A stretch of 64,000 nt of DNA from NCBI RefSeq assembly GCF_001563265.1, contig NZ_CP005084.1, forward strand, positions 925,121 through 989,120, in the 5' to 3' direction. Source of the DNA: Sphingobium sp. TKS (GTDB lineage Bacteria > Pseudomonadota > Alphaproteobacteria > Sphingomonadales > Sphingomonadaceae). This document shows positions 1 through 15,985 of the stretch, piece after piece; position 1 is the stretch's first letter; each line of letters opens with the position of its first letter. The position numbers were made by a program, and so were the translations under genes. Under the pieces are notes generated by a model. It was not told where the DNA came from. It searched no databases and saw only the letters and a program-made list of their open reading frames with translations.

Positions 1-1
1 T

Positions 2-394
2 GAGGTCGACGGCGAAACCCGGCGCTTCCTGTTCGGTGAAACCGGCTGGTGCGGGCCGATCGCACAGCCGGAGAAGCTGCCGCGGCTCTGCTTTCCCATC
101 ACCGGATGGGACGAGAAGCGATATGAGGTCGAAATCCGGCTGCTCAGCACGCTGGAAAGCGGGCAAGAGCGGGCGAACCTGCACGCCATGGCCACGCTGT
201 ACCTGTGCCGGGGCATCGCCCTGCTGGACGCGCAGGACGATCTGGCCGCCCCGTCGCTCACCGAAACCGAGCTTTTCTGCCTCCACCAGCGGCAGGCGGG
301 ATGGTGCGATCTCGATATTGCGGAGGCTCTGGACCGTTCCGTGCAGGCGGTCAAAGTCCATGTTCAGCGCGCCCAGCGCAAGCAGGCCGCCTAA
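2..394 (+). CDS. LuxR-family quorum-sensing regulator, C-terminal part (5' truncated by window)
   Basis: The frame is open from the window edge to a TAA at 392-394, giving 130 residues of the C-terminal part of a transcription factor. The last 50 residues fit a LuxR-type helix-turn-helix: LTETELFCLHQRQAGW followed by DIAEALDRSVQAVKVH matches the family pattern LTxRE..W...G....EIA..L..S..TV..H. The residues before it (around GWDEKRYEVEIRLLS) could be the end of an autoinducer-binding domain, but the N-terminus is outside the window, so this is inferred. It lies 119 bp upstream of a luxI-type gene on the same strand, the usual LuxR-LuxI order, so it probably senses the signal made next door. 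The two normally conserved Gly/Lys positions of the HTH are only partly kept. Family assignment is good; ligand unknown. Confidence 0.75.
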   Translation, partial: EVDGETRRFLFGETGWCGPIAQPEKLPRLCFPITGWDEKRYEVEIRLLSTLESGQERANLHAMATLYLCRGIALLDAQDDLAAPSLTETELFCLHQRQAGWCDLDIAEALDRSVQAVKVHVQRAQRKQAA

Positions 395-464
395 GCCCCC
401 TTTGCCGATTGGATTTTTTGCCGGGCCGATGAATTGCGGCCTGCAACTTTCCGATGACCTCCCC

Positions 465-477
465 AGCATAATATGCT
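465..477. promoter_or_regulatory. 13-bp palindrome upstream of luxI-type gene
   Basis: AGCATA-A-TATGCT is a perfect 6-bp inverted repeat with a 1-bp centre, ending 36 bp before the TTG start at 514. It includes CATAAT, which could serve as a -10 box, so it may be promoter, operator, or both. It is shorter than a typical 18-20 bp lux box and does not match that consensus, so a role in LuxR binding is a guess. Confidence 0.25.
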
Positions 478-513
478 AGAGGCGCAGCCGCTGCATGCGG
501 GAGACGAACGGAT

Positions 514-1305
514 TTGATTCATCTGATTTCGAAGAACAATTCCGCACTTTACCAGGACGAGATCAGAGATTTGCACCAGGCCCGCGCGGAGGTGTTCGTC
601 AACCAGCTTGGCTGGGATCTCAAGGTCAAGGACGGGTTGGAATATGATGAATATGATGATGCGCGCGCGAGCAACATCATAGGGTTTTCGACCGAGAACC
701 GGGTCGTCATGGGGCTGCGTTTCCGCCCCACGGACGACTGTTCCATGCTGCTCGACCATTTTTCGCACGTCCTGCCGGCCGGCATCCGCCCGATCGACGA
801 CGGGCGCACCTGGGAACTGAGCCGGGGATTCTGCATTGAACGGGGCATGCGCCGCCACAATCTGCGACGGAAGGCCGCGTGCATGATCGCGCCGCTGGAA
901 CTGGCCTATGAGGCCGGGATCGACCGCTGCGTCGGCTTCACCGATGTCCGCATGCTCAGCTTTTGTTATGGCGTGGGCTGGAAACTGACCCTGCTCGGAT
1001 CGGCCATGGACTATGGCCAGGGGGAAGCGGTCGCCTATGAGGTGGAAGTATCTCAGGCCGCGCTGAACGAGATGCGGCAGATGTGGGGTCTGCCCAAGCC
1101 GTCGCACATCACGATCGACGACCTCCTTCCAGGGGAGGAGAGCGTGCATGTCGCGGCAGCCCGGCTGGCGCGCGAGAATCCGGAACTGCAAAAGATCGCG
1201 GCCCAGCCGGAGATCGGTTCCGTCACACACCCATCCGCCACGACGCAGGCGGATGGTTATTATGGCAGTTTCGGGACAACCCGATTGTCTGCAGGGGGGC
1301 ATTGA
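514..1305 (+). CDS. LuxI-family acyl-homoserine-lactone synthase
   Basis: Proteins of this family make N-acyl-homoserine lactone from S-adenosylmethionine and an acyl-ACP or acyl-CoA. The 263-residue product keeps the family's invariant residues: R24 and F28 in RAEVF, W34 in LGW, D45/D48 in YDEYDD, R69 in RFRP, and E101/R104 in WELSR. Translation begins at TTG (514) after GGGAGA about ten bases upstream. The protein is about 50-60 residues longer than typical LuxI (about 190-215), the extra being a Gln/Ala/Gly-rich C-terminus from about residue 205. The stop overlaps the start of the next gene (TGATG), which encodes an acyl carrier protein, so substrate is probably delivered by that dedicated carrier. 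The acyl chain cannot be read from sequence. The family call is firm; the lactone product is inferred. Confidence 0.88.
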   Translation: MIHLISKNNSALYQDEIRDLHQARAEVFVNQLGWDLKVKDGLEYDEYDDARASNIIGFSTENRVVMGLRFRPTDDCSMLLDHFSHVLPAGIRPIDDGRTWELSRGFCIERGMRRHNLRRKAACMIAPLELAYEAGIDRCVGFTDVRMLSFCYGVGWKLTLLGSAMDYGQGEAVAYEVEVSQAALNEMRQMWGLPKPSHITIDDLLPGEESVHVAAARLARENPELQKIAAQPEIGSVTHPSATTQADGYYGSFGTTRLSAGGH

Positions 1306-1613
1306 TGAATTTCGACCTTATTCGACAAGCGACAGCAGAGGAGATCGAAGCGTGGATCGTGGCGCGCATCGCTGAAATAGTGAATGTGGCGCCCGATGCC
1401 GTGTCGGCGGACGCGCCGTTCGACAGTTTCGGCATCGATTCCGCCAAGGCGATTTCGCTGATGGTGGAACTGGAAAACTGGCTGAACCTGCCCGACGAAC
1501 TGCCGCTGGAACTGCTGTTCGAAGCGGAGGCGATCCGCGACGCGGCGGCGGGCATCGCCTCGGCGGTCAACGACATGGCGGCGCAACAGGCACAAGGCTC
1601 CGCCGCGCAATGA
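1305..1613 (+). CDS. dedicated acyl carrier protein
   Basis: A 102-residue acidic protein with the ACP fold signature FGIDSAKA, where S46 is the expected phosphopantetheine attachment site. The usual DSL tripeptide is DSA here, a variation common in carriers of secondary metabolism. It extends about 20 Ala/Gln-rich residues past the helical core. It overlaps the luxI-type gene upstream by one base and the methyltransferase gene downstream by four bases (ATGA), so it is translationally coupled on both sides. Its place between a signal synthase, a lipid-type methyltransferase and an acyl-AMP ligase suggests it holds the acyl chain while it is activated, modified and handed to the LuxI enzyme. 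That role is inferred. It would need a phosphopantetheinyl transferase encoded elsewhere. Confidence 0.85.
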   Translation: MNFDLIRQATAEEIEAWIVARIAEIVNVAPDAVSADAPFDSFGIDSAKAISLMVELENWLNLPDELPLELLFEAEAIRDAAAGIASAVNDMAAQQAQGSAAQ

Positions 1614-2476
1614 TCCAGGACGAACAGATCGAATATGGCGGCTCGGCCGCCGCCATCCGCCACCATTATGATGTCGGCAACGACTTTTATTCGGCCTGGC
1701 TGGACCCCACCATGACCTATTCCAGCGCGATGTGGGACGGATTGCCCAAGGACGCGCCGCTGGAAGAGGCGCAGCAGCGCAAGCTCGCCTATCATGCGGA
1801 GTCGGTCGGCGCGGCGGGCGGCATGCGGATATTGGACGTGGGCTGCGGCTGGGGCGGCATGATGCGCAATCTGCGGCGCAACTATGGCGTTGCCGAATGC
1901 GTCGGACTGACGCTCAGCGAGGAGCAGCTCGCCTATATAGAAGGGCTGGGCGATCCGGGCATCGGCGCGGTCCTGTCCAACTGGCATGACTATCGCCCCG
2001 ACAAGCCGTTCGACGCGATCATTTCCGTCGGCGCGTTCGAACATTTCGCCCATCCGCAGCAAAGCGTGGACGAGCGCCGTGGGGTGTACCGCGAGTTCTT
2101 CCAGGCCTGCCGCGACTGGACGGCGGGCAAGGGACGGCTCTCGCTCCAGACCATCGCCTATGGCAAGATGTCGCCGGAGGACGCCAATCCCTTCATCTCG
2201 AACGAGATTTTCCCGGCGGCGGAGCTGCCCACGCTGGAGGACATCGTTGTCGCGTCCAAGGGGCTGTTCCGCATCGAAAGGCTGCGCGACGATGGGCTGG
2301 ACTATGCGCGCACCTGCGAAATGTGGAGCAACAAGCTGCGCGGCGCGGTGAGAAGCGGCGTGGTCGATCCGGACATCCATCCGGTCGAGAAATATTCCCG
2401 CTATCTGCGCATGTCGGCAGCCGGTTTCCGCATGCGCAAGATCGGATTGCTTCGGATAGCCTTCGCGGCGGAATAA
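1610..2476 (+). CDS. cyclopropane-fatty-acid/mycolic-acid-type SAM methyltransferase
   Basis: A 288-residue protein, the size of mycobacterial CmaA/MmaA enzymes and shorter than E. coli Cfa. It has the family hallmark YDVGNDFYSAWLD (residues 20-32) then TYSSAMW, the SAM-binding motif LDVGCGWGG (75-83), and VGAFEHF, matching the conserved VxxxEHV region that binds bicarbonate in Cfa. Members add a methylene or methyl group from S-adenosylmethionine to a double bond of an acyl chain, giving cyclopropane, methyl-branched or oxygenated products. Mycobacterial relatives act on carrier-bound chains. Here the gene overlaps an ACP gene by four bases and precedes an acyl-AMP ligase, so the likely substrate is the acyl group on that ACP rather than membrane phospholipid. 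The substrate is an inference; the family is clear. Confidence 0.85.
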   Translation: MIQDEQIEYGGSAAAIRHHYDVGNDFYSAWLDPTMTYSSAMWDGLPKDAPLEEAQQRKLAYHAESVGAAGGMRILDVGCGWGGMMRNLRRNYGVAECVGLTLSEEQLAYIEGLGDPGIGAVLSNWHDYRPDKPFDAIISVGAFEHFAHPQQSVDERRGVYREFFQACRDWTAGKGRLSLQTIAYGKMSPEDANPFISNEIFPAAELPTLEDIVVASKGLFRIERLRDDGLDYARTCEMWSNKLRGAVRSGVVDPDIHPVEKYSRYLRMSAAGFRMRKIGLLRIAFAAE

Positions 2477-2501
2477 CAAGATCATCGGGTTCGCAAAAAA
2501 G

Positions 2502-4262
2502 ATGCAGATAGACTTTAGTCGATCGATAATCGACATCGTCCTTGGCCATGAAAATACCGTTCCGGATCGGCCCGCGCTGATATTCGATCTGGGCGAAGGG
2601 CCGCAAGACAGCCTGACCTATGCGCAAACTGCGGCTCGGGTCAGGCAGCTTGCCAGCGCCCTGTCGGCGCGGGGATTGGCCGGTCGCAGGATCGCCCTGC
2701 TCTTCTCGGCGGGCACCGATTTCGCGCTTGCGCTGCTCGCCTGCCTTGCGGTGGGCAGCGTCGCCATTCCGGTCGCGCCGGTCGGGCGGCGGCGGGCAAG
2801 GTTGCAGAATATCCTGAGCATGCTGGGCGACATCCGGCCCGATTGCATCATGCTGGACGACAGCATGGCAGGCCAATTCGGGCAGGAACTGTCCGCCGCG
2901 CTTCCCGGCACCATGCGTTATCTGGAATTTTCCGCCCTAGGGCAGGGGACGCATCCCTTCACGCCCCTCACGCTGAAGCCGGATCAGCTTGCCGTGCTCC
3001 AGTTCACCTCCGGCACCACGTCGAACCCCAAGGGGGTGATGATCACCCATGGCAACATCATCGCCAATGAGACGATGATCCAGGCCGCCTTCGGCCACAG
3101 CCAAGATTCCCATTTCGTCGGCTGGGTACCGCATTATCACGACCAGGGGCTGTTCGGTAATATATTGCAGCCGCTGTTCCTGGGCTCGACCTGCGTGATC
3201 ACCTCGCCAGCCGCGTTCATCAACAAGCCGATGTCGTGGCTGCACCTGATTTCCCGCTATCGCGCCCATACCAGCGGCGGCCCGAATTTCGGCTATGACC
3301 TGTGCGTCGACTATGCCACGCGCCGGGGTATCCCGGAACTGGACCTGTCGAGCTGGCGGGTCGCCTTCAACGGCGCGGAGCGGGTCCGGCCCAGCACGCT
3401 CGACCGTTTTGCCGAATGCTTTGCCGATGCCGGTTTCGACAAGCGCGCCTTCCTGCCCTGCTATGGGCTCGCGGAATCGACGCTGGTGACGATCGCGGTG
3501 CCGCCGCAAAGCGAGCCGGTCGTCAGAACCTATGACAGCCGCGCCTTGGCCGCCGGGCGGGCGGAGGAAAGCGCCGAGGGACTCGACCTCGCTTGCTGCG
3601 GCCCAGCCATGGCAGGGGCGGAGGCACGTATCGTCGATCCCAAGACGGGCGAACCGCTGCCCGATGGCTCAGTGGGCGAAATCTGGCTGCGGGGTCCGCA
3701 TATCGCGGTGGGCTATATCGATAATGAAGCGGCGACGGAGGCGACCTTCGGCGGGCGGCTGGATGAAGGCGGGCCGTTCCTCCGAACGGGCGACCTGGGC
3801 TTTTCCACGCCCGAGGGTTTTTTCATCGTCAGCCGTCTCAAGGACACGATCATCGTACGCGGCCGCAACTATGCGCCCAGCGATGTCGAACATATCTGGT
3901 CGGAACTGTCCGGAACGGTCGGCCAGGCCAGCGCCGCCGCCGTCGAGATCGAGATCGGTGACGTGCAGCACATCGTCCTGATCGCGGAGATGAAGCGGGA
4001 CGAGGCCCGGTCCCTGTCCGACGAGATGTTGCAGGAAACCGCCGGCAAATTGCGCGCCATCGCCATGGAGCGGCTGGAACTGAGCATCACCGATCTGGTG
4101 ATGGTGCCCGCCAGCGCGATTCCCCGCACGACGAGCGGCAAGGTGCAGCGGAAACAGGCAGGCAGGATGCTGATGGACGGGGATCTCGCCATCATCGGCA
4201 TGACAGGACCACTGGCGCAGGCCTTTCAGCCGTCCCGGCAAAAGGCTTCGGCCGCGGGCTGA
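2502..4262 (+). CDS. fatty acyl-AMP ligase (FAAL-like, ANL superfamily)
   Basis: A 586-residue adenylate-forming enzyme. The ATP-binding loop is FTSGTTSNPKG (168-178), followed by YGLAEST (A5), LRTGDLGF (A7) and the C-terminal PRTTSGK, where K547 is the expected catalytic lysine. Overall length, the RGRNYAPSDVEHIW segment and the ACP neighbour favour a fatty acyl-AMP ligase, which activates a free fatty acid with ATP and passes it to an ACP, over an acyl-CoA ligase. The FAAL-specific insertion was not verified by alignment. The gene starts 25 bp after the methyltransferase stop and appears to be the last of the luxI operon. Proposed role: load a free long-chain acid onto the ACP encoded at 1305-1613. 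An alternative is lipid or polyketide tailoring unrelated to signalling. Confidence 0.82.
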   Translation: MQIDFSRSIIDIVLGHENTVPDRPALIFDLGEGPQDSLTYAQTAARVRQLASALSARGLAGRRIALLFSAGTDFALALLACLAVGSVAIPVAPVGRRRARLQNILSMLGDIRPDCIMLDDSMAGQFGQELSAALPGTMRYLEFSALGQGTHPFTPLTLKPDQLAVLQFTSGTTSNPKGVMITHGNIIANETMIQAAFGHSQDSHFVGWVPHYHDQGLFGNILQPLFLGSTCVITSPAAFINKPMSWLHLISRYRAHTSGGPNFGYDLCVDYATRRGIPELDLSSWRVAFNGAERVRPSTLDRFAECFADAGFDKRAFLPCYGLAESTLVTIAVPPQSEPVVRTYDSRALAAGRAEESAEGLDLACCGPAMAGAEARIVDPKTGEPLPDGSVGEIWLRGPHIAVGYIDNEAATEATFGGRLDEGGPFLRTGDLGFSTPEGFFIVSRLKDTIIVRGRNYAPSDVEHIWSELSGTVGQASAAAVEIEIGDVQHIVLIAEMKRDEARSLSDEMLQETAGKLRAIAMERLELSITDLVMVPASAIPRTTSGKVQRKQAGRMLMDGDLAIIGMTGPLAQAFQPSRQKASAAG

Positions 4263-4388
4263 GATCGGCCGAACGAAAAACCATTTGGGGATGCCGGACT
4301 CGTTTCTTGATGCCCGGCCTTCAGAAGCGTAAACTTGCGTTCGACTTTGGAGGCCCGACCAACTGCATCAGGTGGAGAGGATGGCCCG

Positions 4389-5006
4389 ATGATTCACGCG
4401 TCATTGCCGATGCGCCGGACCAGGAGATGGGCGGCCCTGGCCTCCCTGCTGCTGGCGGCGACCGCTGGTCCGGCCCTCGCCCAGTCGATGATCCTTCCCG
4501 AAGGCATGACCATCCAGTTGGAGACGCGTCAGGAGCTTTCCTCCAAATCAGCGCGCGTTGGCGACCCGGTCGAGCTGGCGGTCGCCAAGCCGGTCACGAT
4601 CGGGGGCGTGACGCTGATCCCTGCGGGCAGCCCGGCGGTCGGAGAGGTCAGCCGGGCCAGGGACAATGGCCTGTTGGGCCGGTCCGGCAAGCTGGACATC
4701 AAGGTCAGCACGGTCAAGGCGGGCGGAATCGACGTGCCGGTGCGTGGTGAACGCAATGCAAAGGGCAAATCCGGCACGCTAGGCGCGGTGGGCGCGGGCA
4801 TCCTCTTCCTGCCGCTGGCGGTGATCATCCGGGGCAAGGACGTCAAATTACCCTCCGGCACGCTGTTCGAGGTCTATGTCGACAGGGAGGTTAACATCGG
4901 ATCGAACGCCGCCCCTGCCGCGCCCGGTGTAACGGCCCCTTATGAAGGCCGGGAGGCGCCCACCAGCATCAAGACCATCGATCCCAATCAGGCATTGGGT
5001 TCCTGA
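4389..5006 (+). CDS. hypothetical exported protein
   Basis: A 205-residue protein with an N-terminal signal peptide: Arg-rich start, then AALASLLLAATAGPALAQS with cleavage expected after ALA. I chose the ATG at 4389 because GGAGAGG lies about eight bases upstream; a longer reading from 4335 has no ribosome site and 4410 is also possible. The mature part has short beta-rich blocks such as EGMTIQLETRQELSSKSA, a VGDPVELAV segment and a Gly/Ala hydrophobic stretch (GAVGAGILFLPLAVII), so it may be a periplasmic or outer-membrane-associated protein. No catalytic motif was recognised. It is 126 bp from the acyl-AMP ligase and may be independent of that operon. Its 3' end overlaps the convergent LysR gene by 19 bp. 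Confidence 0.6.
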   Translation: MIHASLPMRRTRRWAALASLLLAATAGPALAQSMILPEGMTIQLETRQELSSKSARVGDPVELAVAKPVTIGGVTLIPAGSPAVGEVSRARDNGLLGRSGKLDIKVSTVKAGGIDVPVRGERNAKGKSGTLGAVGAGILFLPLAVIIRGKDVKLPSGTLFEVYVDREVNIGSNAAPAAPGVTAPYEGREAPTSIKTIDPNQALGS

Positions 5007-14462: not shown

Positions 14463-15851
14463 TCAGAAGAACAGGATCGCCCCCGCCGCGATCGCGTCGG
14501 AACTCGCCCGGTTGCCATTATGCGCTTCCGACTTGGTGTGGACATATTCGCTGAGCAGCGTGACCCAGCTCGTCAGGCCATAGCGGACCTGCCCGACCCA
14601 GCTCGAATTCTTGTCCACAAGCGTCGGATTGGCGAGCGCGTCGGCGGCATTGGCATAGTCGAGATTGCTCTCACCATAGCTGCCGCCCACAGAGAATTTC
14701 CCGAAGCTCGCCAGCCCTTGAAGATAGAAGCCATGGCTGTCGCGCTTATTGCCCAGGCCATCGGTATCGAACAGGTTGAGCGCCGTCGTGCCAAGGCCCG
14801 AGGCATCATAATAGGTGCCGACCAGCGTCAGCGGCCCCACCGTCACCTTCGCGCCCGCATCCCAGCCCCAGCCGGTATAATCGGGGCCAGCGATCACATT
14901 ATGCTTCTGCCGGATGCCCGCGGCCCAGAGGCGCGTCCCCACGCCACCGAACTTGCCGTCATAGACCAGCTTGCCCTGGAAGCCCGGCTCCTTATTGGAC
15001 TCATCCGGCCCCGTCAGCGAGGAGAGCGGCTCAAAAATGCCGATGCTGGCGGTGAAGCCGCTAAGATTGGGCGTGGTATAGGTGATCTGAGGCTGGAAGT
15101 CGGTATAGATATAACCGACGCCGATCCGTCCCAGCGTCGTGTTCGACGGCGCGACATTGCCCGCCGGCGTGCCCGACGACAGTAGGGTGATGTCGTTCAA
15201 TATCTGCTCCGAAGCGAACAGGCCGATGTCGCGGCCGATCTTCACTTCGCCAAAGCCGGGGCGGCCAAAGGTCAGATAGGTCTGGCGGAAATCGATGCCC
15301 GCCGTCTGAAGCCCGCGCGGATTGCCGGGGCTGTTCGCGCCGCCGCCCGAATAGCTGACGGAGTTGATGCCCGGATACATGCCGAAATGCGCGCCCACGT
15401 CCCAGCCGCCCTGGTTGGTCGTGACCTCCACCTTCAGGAAGCCGGGGAGCAAGCCGTTGCGGATGGCCGAACTGTTGCTGCCCACGGTCGCCACGCCGCC
15501 CACGACGCTGTTGGTGGCGCTGGGCGCCTCGCCGTTGTCATGGACGTAGAAGCCGTTGACCGAGCCGGAAAATTTCAGCGTCACGCCGCCCATTTCGAAG
15601 CCCACGCCACTATCGGTCATGCGAACGGTCCGCCCGCCGCCTGACGCATCGGGCGTTACCGGAGGCGCCGAAGGGGCTGCCGCCGCCTCTGCGCTCTCAT
15701 TTTTCAGCAGTTCCTGATATTCATCGTCGGAGAGAATACCCTTTTCATGCAGCCGCTTCAGCAGATCGGCCGTCGTTCCCGCCATGGCTGGCGTAGCAGT
15801 CGCGCAAAGCAGCCCCATGGCCGCGCTCGCGAGGAGCAGCGTCCTTTTCAT
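14463..15851 (-). CDS. outer-membrane porin with coiled-coil N-terminus
   Basis: A 462-residue exported protein. The signal peptide ends PAMAG, then a short helix ADLLKRLHEKGILSDDEYQ (the SHOCT-like segment seen in phosphate-selective and related porins), an Ala/Pro linker, and a beta barrel beginning VGFEMGGVTLKFSGSVNGFY and ending AAGAILFF with a terminal Phe. It probably lets small solutes, perhaps the alcohol substrate, into the periplasm. A version of the alcohol-regulon element lies 73-89 bp upstream of the ATG, and the gene is surrounded by PQQ-related genes, which supports co-regulation. Substrate specificity is unknown. Confidence 0.8.
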   Translation of the reverse strand: MKRTLLLASAAMGLLCATATPAMAGTTADLLKRLHEKGILSDDEYQELLKNESAEAAAAPSAPPVTPDASGGGRTVRMTDSGVGFEMGGVTLKFSGSVNGFYVHDNGEAPSATNSVVGGVATVGSNSSAIRNGLLPGFLKVEVTTNQGGWDVGAHFGMYPGINSVSYSGGGANSPGNPRGLQTAGIDFRQTYLTFGRPGFGEVKIGRDIGLFASEQILNDITLLSSGTPAGNVAPSNTTLGRIGVGYIYTDFQPQITYTTPNLSGFTASIGIFEPLSSLTGPDESNKEPGFQGKLVYDGKFGGVGTRLWAAGIRQKHNVIAGPDYTGWGWDAGAKVTVGPLTLVGTYYDASGLGTTALNLFDTDGLGNKRDSHGFYLQGLASFGKFSVGGSYGESNLDYANAADALANPTLVDKNSSWVGQVRYGLTSWVTLLSEYVHTKSEAHNGNRASSDAIAAGAILFF

Positions 15852-15923
15852 AACATCCTCCCTCTTATGTGCCGGTCAAAGCCCCCGGCGAAGGGAAGAG
15901 TGGGGCGGACAGCCTCATACTGG

Positions 15924-15940
15924 AAATTGGACTTAGGGCT
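15924..15940 (-). promoter_or_regulatory. alcohol-regulon element upstream of porin
   Basis: Towards the gene it reads AGCCCTAAGTCCAATTT. TCCAATT is identical to the alcohol dehydrogenase element and 12 of 17 positions agree overall. It is 73-89 bp before the start codon, the same spacing class as the other copies. It is a weaker match than the pair at 18619 and 41650. Confidence 0.4.
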
Positions 15941-15985
15941 TCCTCCCTTGGGAGGAGGGAGTTGGAAGGAAGCGAGGCGCTTGTT

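Follow-up and report, generated by a model that had tools for sequence, protein, structure and literature searches.

A Sphingobium luxI operon with its own acyl carrier protein, CFA-type methyltransferase and predicted fatty acyl-AMP ligase as a proposed route to an unusual acyl-homoserine lactone

Here we describe a luxI operon of Sphingobium sp. TKS that was found in a stretch of 64,000 nucleotides (contig NZ_CP005084.1, positions 925,121 to 989,120; hereafter the window), which lies at the end of contig C2 of a 6.2 Mb genome. Positions 514-4262 hold a tight operon of luxI, a gene for an acyl carrier protein (ACP), a gene for a CFA-type methyltransferase and a gene for a predicted fatty acyl-AMP ligase (FAAL), with a luxR-like gene upstream (Table 1). 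The luxI stop and the ACP start overlap as TGATG, the ACP and CFA genes overlap as ATGA, and a gap of 25 nt separates CFA from FAAL. An initial annotation of this DNA had described a LuxI synthase with a private carrier (S46), a CFA-type methyltransferase and a ligase (K547) encoded by overlapping or adjacent genes, and the Pfam matches, coordinates and overlaps confirmed all four genes. Beyond the window, on the opposite strand and upstream of the luxR-like gene, there are genes for a CYP153-like P450, a TonB-dependent receptor and a PAS-GGDEF-EAL protein.

Table 1. Genes of the luxI locus in the window, with the evidence for each assignment.
Feature	Position	Strand	Evidence and remarks
luxR-like gene, 3' part (whole open reading frame 182 aa)	1..394	+	start 155 bases before base 1; window edge cuts the gene
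luxI, predicted acyl-homoserine-lactone synthase, 263 aa	514..1305	+	Pfam PF00765, LuxI residues, tree; TTG start as listed
acyl carrier protein, 102 aa, Ser46	1305..1613	+	PF00550; start overlaps luxI stop
CFA/CMAS-type SAM-dependent methyltransferase, 288 aa; Ser39, Glu144, Gln180, Tyr232	1610..2476	+	PF02353, PDB alignments, family alignment
predicted fatty acyl-AMP ligase (FAAL), 586 aa, Lys547	2502..4262	+	NCBIfam scores, solved relatives, tree
conserved protein, ~206 aa, looks exported by eye; operon membership uncertain	4386..5006	+	no Pfam family

The LuxI protein matched the Pfam family Autoind_synth with an E-value of 4.7e-25 (88.6 bits against a curated cut-off of 24). Residues R24, F28, W34, E43, D45, D48, R69 and F83 are present, and the WELSR motif in the translation supplies E101 and R104. 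Together these make up the ten positions that we take, with their assumed roles, to be the set usually named for LuxI proteins. The protein is thus a member of the Autoind_synth family with all ten conserved residues and is predicted to be an acyl-homoserine lactone (AHL) synthase. The ACP matched the PP-binding family PF00550 (E 9.4e-11) and carries the phosphopantetheine-site serine, Ser46. Its sole NCBIfam match was to the start of Pks13, a region that is presumably FAAL-loaded, and this match was weak (21.9 bits, far under the cut-off).

The methyltransferase contains a CMAS domain (PF02353, E 1.4e-55, 189 bits against a cut-off of 27). Roughly the first 100 residues of the long Cfa enzymes are missing from it, and its alignment with the mycolic-acid methyltransferases, which act on carrier-bound chains, runs over nearly the full length. 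Alignments with PDB structures and with the family showed that Ser39 and Gln180 replace the Cys and His of the solved cyclopropane synthases, while Glu144 and Tyr232 are retained; the active-site roles of these four positions are those that we assume for the solved enzymes. Glutamine at position 180 is usual among the aligned relatives (72 of 81 rows), and serine at position 39 is rare, occurring in eight of the 81 rows, four of them luxI-linked. Given that two of the residues aligned to the active site are changed, the product chemistry may be either cyclopropanation or methyl branching. Of the cyclopropane or branched chain proposed by the initial annotation, the CMAS-family methyltransferase stood, but the cyclopropane residue set is incomplete; the enzyme is predicted to be a CFA-family methyltransferase, and its assignment as a cyclopropane synthase is not assured.

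The ligase matched the AMP-binding family with an E-value of 3.7e-66, and Lys547 lies within the motif SGKVQR. Among the NCBIfam models, all of which scored under their curated cut-offs, an NRPS/PKS (nonribosomal peptide/polyketide synthase) subfamily gave 402.8 bits, the FAAL models 355.5-262.6 bits, one model named CoA ligase 281.6 bits and the next CoA ligase 169.2. A similar gradient was seen among the solved structures: 7r7f, named a polyketide synthase, scored 349, the rows named fatty-acid-AMP or fatty acyl-adenylate ligase 285-195, the rows named Acyl-CoA synthase, which we take to be FadD32-type, 220-182, and the ordinary CoA ligases 109 or less. The protein is closer to FAALs than to acyl-CoA ligases and is predicted to be a FAAL, so that profiles and solved relatives both support the FAAL-like ligase first read from the sequence.

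In a LuxI search of 298 genomes of the family Sphingomonadaceae, the genomes beyond the window's own comprised eight with relatives at 40-49% identity, after which identity dropped to ~29%. The CFA search matched two of the 298, namely the window's own genome and a metagenome-assembled genome (MAG; G056). A wider scan of genome contigs with CFA, made with two short peptide patterns and keeping 80 of the 130 relatives, found the operon in six further records. The order luxR-like-luxI-ACP-CFA-FAAL was observed at 10 distinct loci, counted by contig, with LuxI identity to the window ranging from 94 to 57%. In Sphingobium these are the window, L070 (S. chlorophenolicum), L071 (Sphingobium sp. 15-1), L072 (S. 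fuliginis) and L168 (genome G367). Two more lie on plasmids, one on pSRL2 of S. indicum B90A (L169/L174) and one in Sphingobium sp. TomMM15 (L175), and the remaining three are L073 and L074, both from MAGs, and L102 from S. sufflavum. Some of the loci analysed in this work are cut off by contig ends. The conserved order for which the initial annotation had suggested looking is therefore kept, and a chance neighbourhood was ruled out by it.

An orthologous TonB-dependent receptor was present at all 10 loci, in two different positions. At seven loci it lies upstream and divergent from the luxR-like gene, at three of them with the P450 in between, while at L073, L074 and L102 it lies downstream and convergent, behind FAAL. 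Among the eight full-length copies compared, identity ranged from 50 to 92%, and the TomMM15 receptor is 78% identical to that of the window. Matches to LuxI (E 1e-30), CFA (E 1e-60) and the receptor (E 1e-120) were found in exactly the same seven of 94 genomes of the genus, where 11 receptor candidates were scored per genome, of up to 135. The receptor's shift of position in three diverged loci is a stronger point than this co-occurrence within the genus.

The dN/dS ratios (nonsynonymous to synonymous substitution rates) were computed for a set of seven genes against three close relatives, L070, L071 and L072. Values of 0.08-0.25 were obtained for luxR-like, luxI, ACP, CFA, FAAL, the TonB receptor and GGDEF-EAL, and the seven genes are under purifying selection. 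Against L073, synonymous sites were saturated for luxR-like, the receptor and ACP. These results bear on the explanation that the genes are carried along together by mobile DNA and share no pathway. In its favour, two instances are plasmid-borne, and each has a mobile element nearby: IS6100 adjoins one, and ~8 kb separate the other from an IS256-family transposase. On pSRL2 (L174 3632-6163) the TonB receptor is interrupted by IS6100, and the annotation gives normal lengths for luxI, ACP, CFA and FAAL. However, order and overlaps are kept down to 57% LuxI identity although the receptor and the P450 have moved, and with selection acting on all seven genes tested we consider such hitch-hiking highly improbable.

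The LuxI, CFA and FAAL trees were midpoint-rooted, so that any direction of change in them is one that we infer; TomMM15 is in none of the three. In the LuxI tree, built from 27 chosen rows, nine cassette LuxIs grouped together with moderate support (88/81), within a clade of 17 rows (100/99) that stands apart from the canonical sphingomonad LuxIs. The window's genome holds other LuxI matches as well: a partial match with an in-frame TAG (L003, G000:C1:123956-124171), likely a decayed luxI, and two further matches on contig C3.

A kindred cassette also occurs without luxI. CFA relatives at ~50% identity were found in actinobacteria (Nocardia, Frankia, Amycolatopsis and others) and in one Pseudovibrio, none with a LuxI match. 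Their gene order, desaturase-ACP-CFA-P450-FAAL-4HBT thioesterase, was read in detail at L081 and L117 and in part at L077 and L075, the latter with a desaturase match somewhere in the locus. This cassette resembles the operon in having homologous CFA and FAAL genes, plus an ACP, in the same order. It differs in having its own desaturase and no LuxI match: among 54 luxI-free CFA loci (L075-L130 without L089 and L102, which both hold luxI), a desaturase was matched in 49, a P450 in 48, FAAL in 49, a thioesterase in 38 and LuxI in none. The short ACP was matched by tblastn in only 12 of the 54 and more often in an open reading frame (ORF) search. At the luxI cassette loci a desaturase was matched in none of the 10 and a thioesterase in one, L073.

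In the CFA tree (36 of 82 aligned rows, among which L067 and L089 are the same locus), the six luxI-linked CFAs included came out as a single clade (99/97), whose sister was the Pseudovibrio cassette (96/97), and both lay beside a clade of 16 actinobacterial sequences. The FAAL tree of 32 FAALs agreed, grouping six luxI-linked FAALs with Pseudovibrio (100/100; the six alone 93/91). Recruitment from the common FAALs of sphingomonads was rejected, given that six of nine such FAALs taken from other loci are placed far away in the tree. Among the remaining three, L058 joins L096 close to the cassette FAALs, and long branches lead to L059 and L060. CFA and FAAL are thus kin to the luxI-free cassette of actinobacteria and Pseudovibrio. 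The simplest history, its direction being the one that we infer, would be that a luxR-like-luxI-GGDEF locus took up the ready-made cassette once, minus thioesterase and desaturase. An alphaproteobacterial locus (L184 7891-14553) has the order desaturase-ACP-CFA-FAAL followed by two genes that look by eye like acyl-CoA dehydrogenases, with no luxI match. The class-level search that covered it gave six matches beyond the window's genome, with no LuxI match in the four read (L182-L185) and with G648 and G423 unread. Separately, locus L068 (6052-10066, genome G057) holds a FAAL-P450-(ACP+thioesterase) set whose FAAL is 43% identical to that of the window, and no CFA or luxI was seen there.

Taken together, we consider it probable, with clear reservations, that LuxI releases a CFA-modified acyl chain from the private ACP as an unusual AHL. 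In the proposed mechanism, FAAL would adenylate a free fatty acid and load it onto the operon's own ACP, and the methyltransferase would then add a carbon derived from S-adenosylmethionine (SAM) at a C-C double bond of the ACP-bound chain, giving a cyclopropane or a methyl or methylene branch. LuxI would act as the offloading enzyme, replacing the thioesterase of the luxI-free cassette, and the product would be an AHL with a modified long chain.

Several observations weigh against this reading. The top solved matches of LuxI were RpaI, BjaI and 6wns (55, 53 and 46 bits), ahead of 3p2f, LasI and EsaI (33, 32 and 29 bits). We take RpaI and BjaI to be users of acyl-CoA, and the structure names are partly our own assumption. 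A canonical sphingomonad LuxI matched 3p2f and RpaI about equally, so that the lean towards RpaI and BjaI is not general in the family. Because the best solved matches are RpaI and BjaI, and the canonical LuxI lacks that lean, acyl-CoA is a live rival to ACP as the predicted LuxI donor. Furthermore, the LuxI relatives in the eight genomes mentioned above sit in loci where luxR-like and luxI adjoin the PAS-GGDEF-EAL gene; ACP, CFA, FAAL and the TonB receptor were unmatched at all eight loci, and CFA had no match genome-wide at E 1e-60. This type of LuxI can therefore do without the cassette. Six to seven of the 10 cassette loci are close kin, so the co-occurrence does not represent many independent events; the linkage of LuxI, CFA and receptor is one by descent as well as function. 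At L073 a 4HBT-thioesterase-like ORF of 166 aa (15466-15966, 26% identity) lies behind the P450. It may be a general gene, since it is flanked by an ATPase gene and a succinate-dehydrogenase-like gene, both named by eye.

A further such point came from the MAG KLAP49 (G056, contig C132, L067 6904-10202), where genes for a PhyH-type dioxygenase and then a CFA come after a canonical luxR-luxI pair, with no ACP or FAAL match in the 14.5 kb read. Its CFA is 52% identical to that of the window and falls elsewhere in the tree, and its LuxI is only ~28% identical; on these grounds the pairing of luxI with a CFA of this subfamily seems to have arisen two times. Neighbouring luxI and phyH genes have been described before in sphingomonads (PMC4288048).

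The same evidence bears on an alternative in which one regulon makes two products, LuxI giving an ordinary or acyl-CoA-derived AHL and ACP-CFA-FAAL a separate lipid tied to quorum sensing. It would account for the LuxI scores nearer to acyl-CoA-type synthases, for the LuxI type that occurs without the cassette, and for the cassette that elsewhere stands alone without luxI, often with a thioesterase. It fits less well with luxI being the first gene of an overlapping operon, and with the finding that nine of the 10 loci gave no thioesterase match and show no evident release enzyme other than LuxI (the rest of the genome was not searched). We regard the two-product explanation as a minority possibility to be taken seriously, and prefer release of the modified chain by LuxI.

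The protein encoded upstream of luxI is unlike an ordinary receptor. Its N-terminal part is short, and the autoinducer-binding domain PF03472 was detected at E 0.5 in none of 18 members of its family, nor in the window copy, while one canonical sphingomonad LuxR, used as a control, matched at E 1.1e-23. The proposal of the initial annotation that the adjacent LuxR is the receptor was not upheld, and its role as an ordinary receptor was rejected for want of a detectable autoinducer domain. The LuxR-type helix-turn-helix (HTH) was matched in 17 of the 18 members at E up to 0.5, although in the window copy the GerE match is weak (E 0.00086, 19.3 bits against a cut-off of 23.5). A profile comparison with 11 canonical LuxRs (97% probability) gave an alignment that spans the length of the family and is due mostly to the HTH, and on the strength of this alignment its descent from LuxR is possible. 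A shared operator in the luxR-luxI gap was not evident: the gap is similar in six close relatives and aligns poorly at the distant loci, and no formal lux-box test was made. For two further strains of Sphingobium, 'luxI solos' preceded by an N-terminally truncated LuxR gene have been reported (PMC4288048). The same paper tabulates one unpaired luxI each for S. chlorophenolicum NBRC 16172 and S. indicum B90A, which probably are the present locus.

The proposed mechanism also gives the neighbouring TonB-dependent receptor a probable role, namely the import of the signal or of a related lipid. Its nearest solved relative is the pesticin receptor, and siderophore-receptor models match under their cut-off; such names from solved structures leave the cargo unfixed. 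The receptor also raises the alternative that LuxI does couple the modified chain, yet the product is a scavenging or surface lipid retaken by the receptor and not mainly a quorum signal, with the LuxR-like protein as a relic or a non-AHL regulator. The missing autoinducer domain, the receptor's presence at every cassette locus and its siderophore-type matches are all consistent with this. Siderophore-type names, however, say little in so broad a receptor family, and a relic would sit poorly with a luxR-like gene that is under purifying selection (dN/dS 0.15-0.18 against L070-L072) in a family that has kept its HTH. We consider this scavenging role improbable, and continue with a signal released by LuxI.

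Other neighbours differ in how constantly they occur. The CYP153-like P450 was found at four of the 10 cassette loci (the window, L169, L175 and L073), and the best solved matches of the window copy were 6hqw (554 bits) and CYP153D17 (500 bits). With that distribution, and with only ~25-30% identity to the P450s of the L081 cassette, it was rejected as a fixed part of the system; at the loci that bear it, it may also hydroxylate the far end of the chain. The PAS-GGDEF-EAL gene (L005 8787-11009, on contig C2 before the window) was present at nine of the 10 cassette loci and at all eight cassette-free luxI relatives, which hints at a lasting link of this LuxI type to cyclic di-GMP. The conserved protein encoded behind FAAL in the window has homologues in the same place in L071, L072, L168 and L169 (pSRL2), with no match at L073, L074 and L102 and none above 60 bits at L175.

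In its fullest form the proposal is a new class of quorum signal: a cyclopropane or methyl-branched AHL, terminally hydroxylated at some loci, that would be assembled on the operon's own ACP after loading by FAAL, actively taken up through a TonB-dependent receptor dedicated to it, and read out through a LuxR-like protein without the usual signal-binding domain and the PAS-GGDEF-EAL neighbour. As a whole, this combination is unlikely, and we offer it as a tentative picture only.

Parts of the route have counterparts in known systems. In the jamaicamide-type JamABC triad, as is proposed here, a dedicated ACP receives a free acid, which is modified while bound to it and then passed on; the triad differs in having a desaturase or acetylenase in place of the methyltransferase and a polyketide synthase in place of LuxI as the acceptor. 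In the Pks13-FadD32-mycolic acid methyltransferase system, FAAL, ACP and CMAS-type enzymes act on carrier-bound chains; the enzymes are of the same kinds as in the operon, and the acceptor and the product differ.

Among quorum-sensing systems, the three-gene R1-I1-crotonase circuit of Mesorhizobium has a gene next to luxI that is needed for an unusual acyl chain, and its LuxI is of the acyl-CoA type (PMC10470506). That a linked gene shapes the acyl chain in a luxI circuit already described speaks for the route proposed here. The circuit resembles the operon in that luxI is closely followed by an acyl-chain gene, and in its acyl-CoA-type LuxI, which the best solved matches suggest here also. 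It has a single accessory gene and a LuxR that works as the receptor, whereas the operon described here has ACP, CFA and FAAL together with a TonB receptor and a LuxR-like protein without a detectable autoinducer domain. In Sinorhizobium, FadL mediates the uptake of long-chain AHLs (PMC9938287); it is an outer-membrane protein for hydrophobic signals, as is proposed for the receptor here, but is not TonB-dependent. The luxI-phyH neighbourhoods and 'luxI solos' with truncated LuxR belong to the same bacterial family as the operon, and in the text describing them the terms 'acyl carrier', 'cyclopropane' and 'TonB' do not occur (PMC4288048); identity of those loci with the present one is likely.

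In the open-access literature, covered through the titles and abstract openings of the papers listed and with most subscription journals outside it, no LuxI with ACP, FAAL or CFA and no cyclopropane AHL was found. Nor was a luxI operon with its own ACP, FAAL, CFA and TonB receptor, although absence from print is not thereby shown. The LuxI synthase family and quorum circuits with one linked acyl-shaping gene are already known; what is new, as an arrangement, is the supply route and the import partner.

Unusual chains can escape surveys that are based on biosensors or on the homoserine-lactone fragment, and such a miss is recounted for the Mesorhizobium signal itself (PMC10470506). The question is directly testable, as the operon is carried by the culture-collection strains S. 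chlorophenolicum NBRC 16172 and S. fuliginis DSM 18781 and also by S. indicum B90A. If the proposed route is true, LuxI would be the enzyme that offloads the product of a lipid pathway run on a carrier, the chemistry of AHLs would be widened to SAM-alkylated chains, and the receptor would offer a testable example of a hydrophobic signal being actively taken up across the outer membrane.

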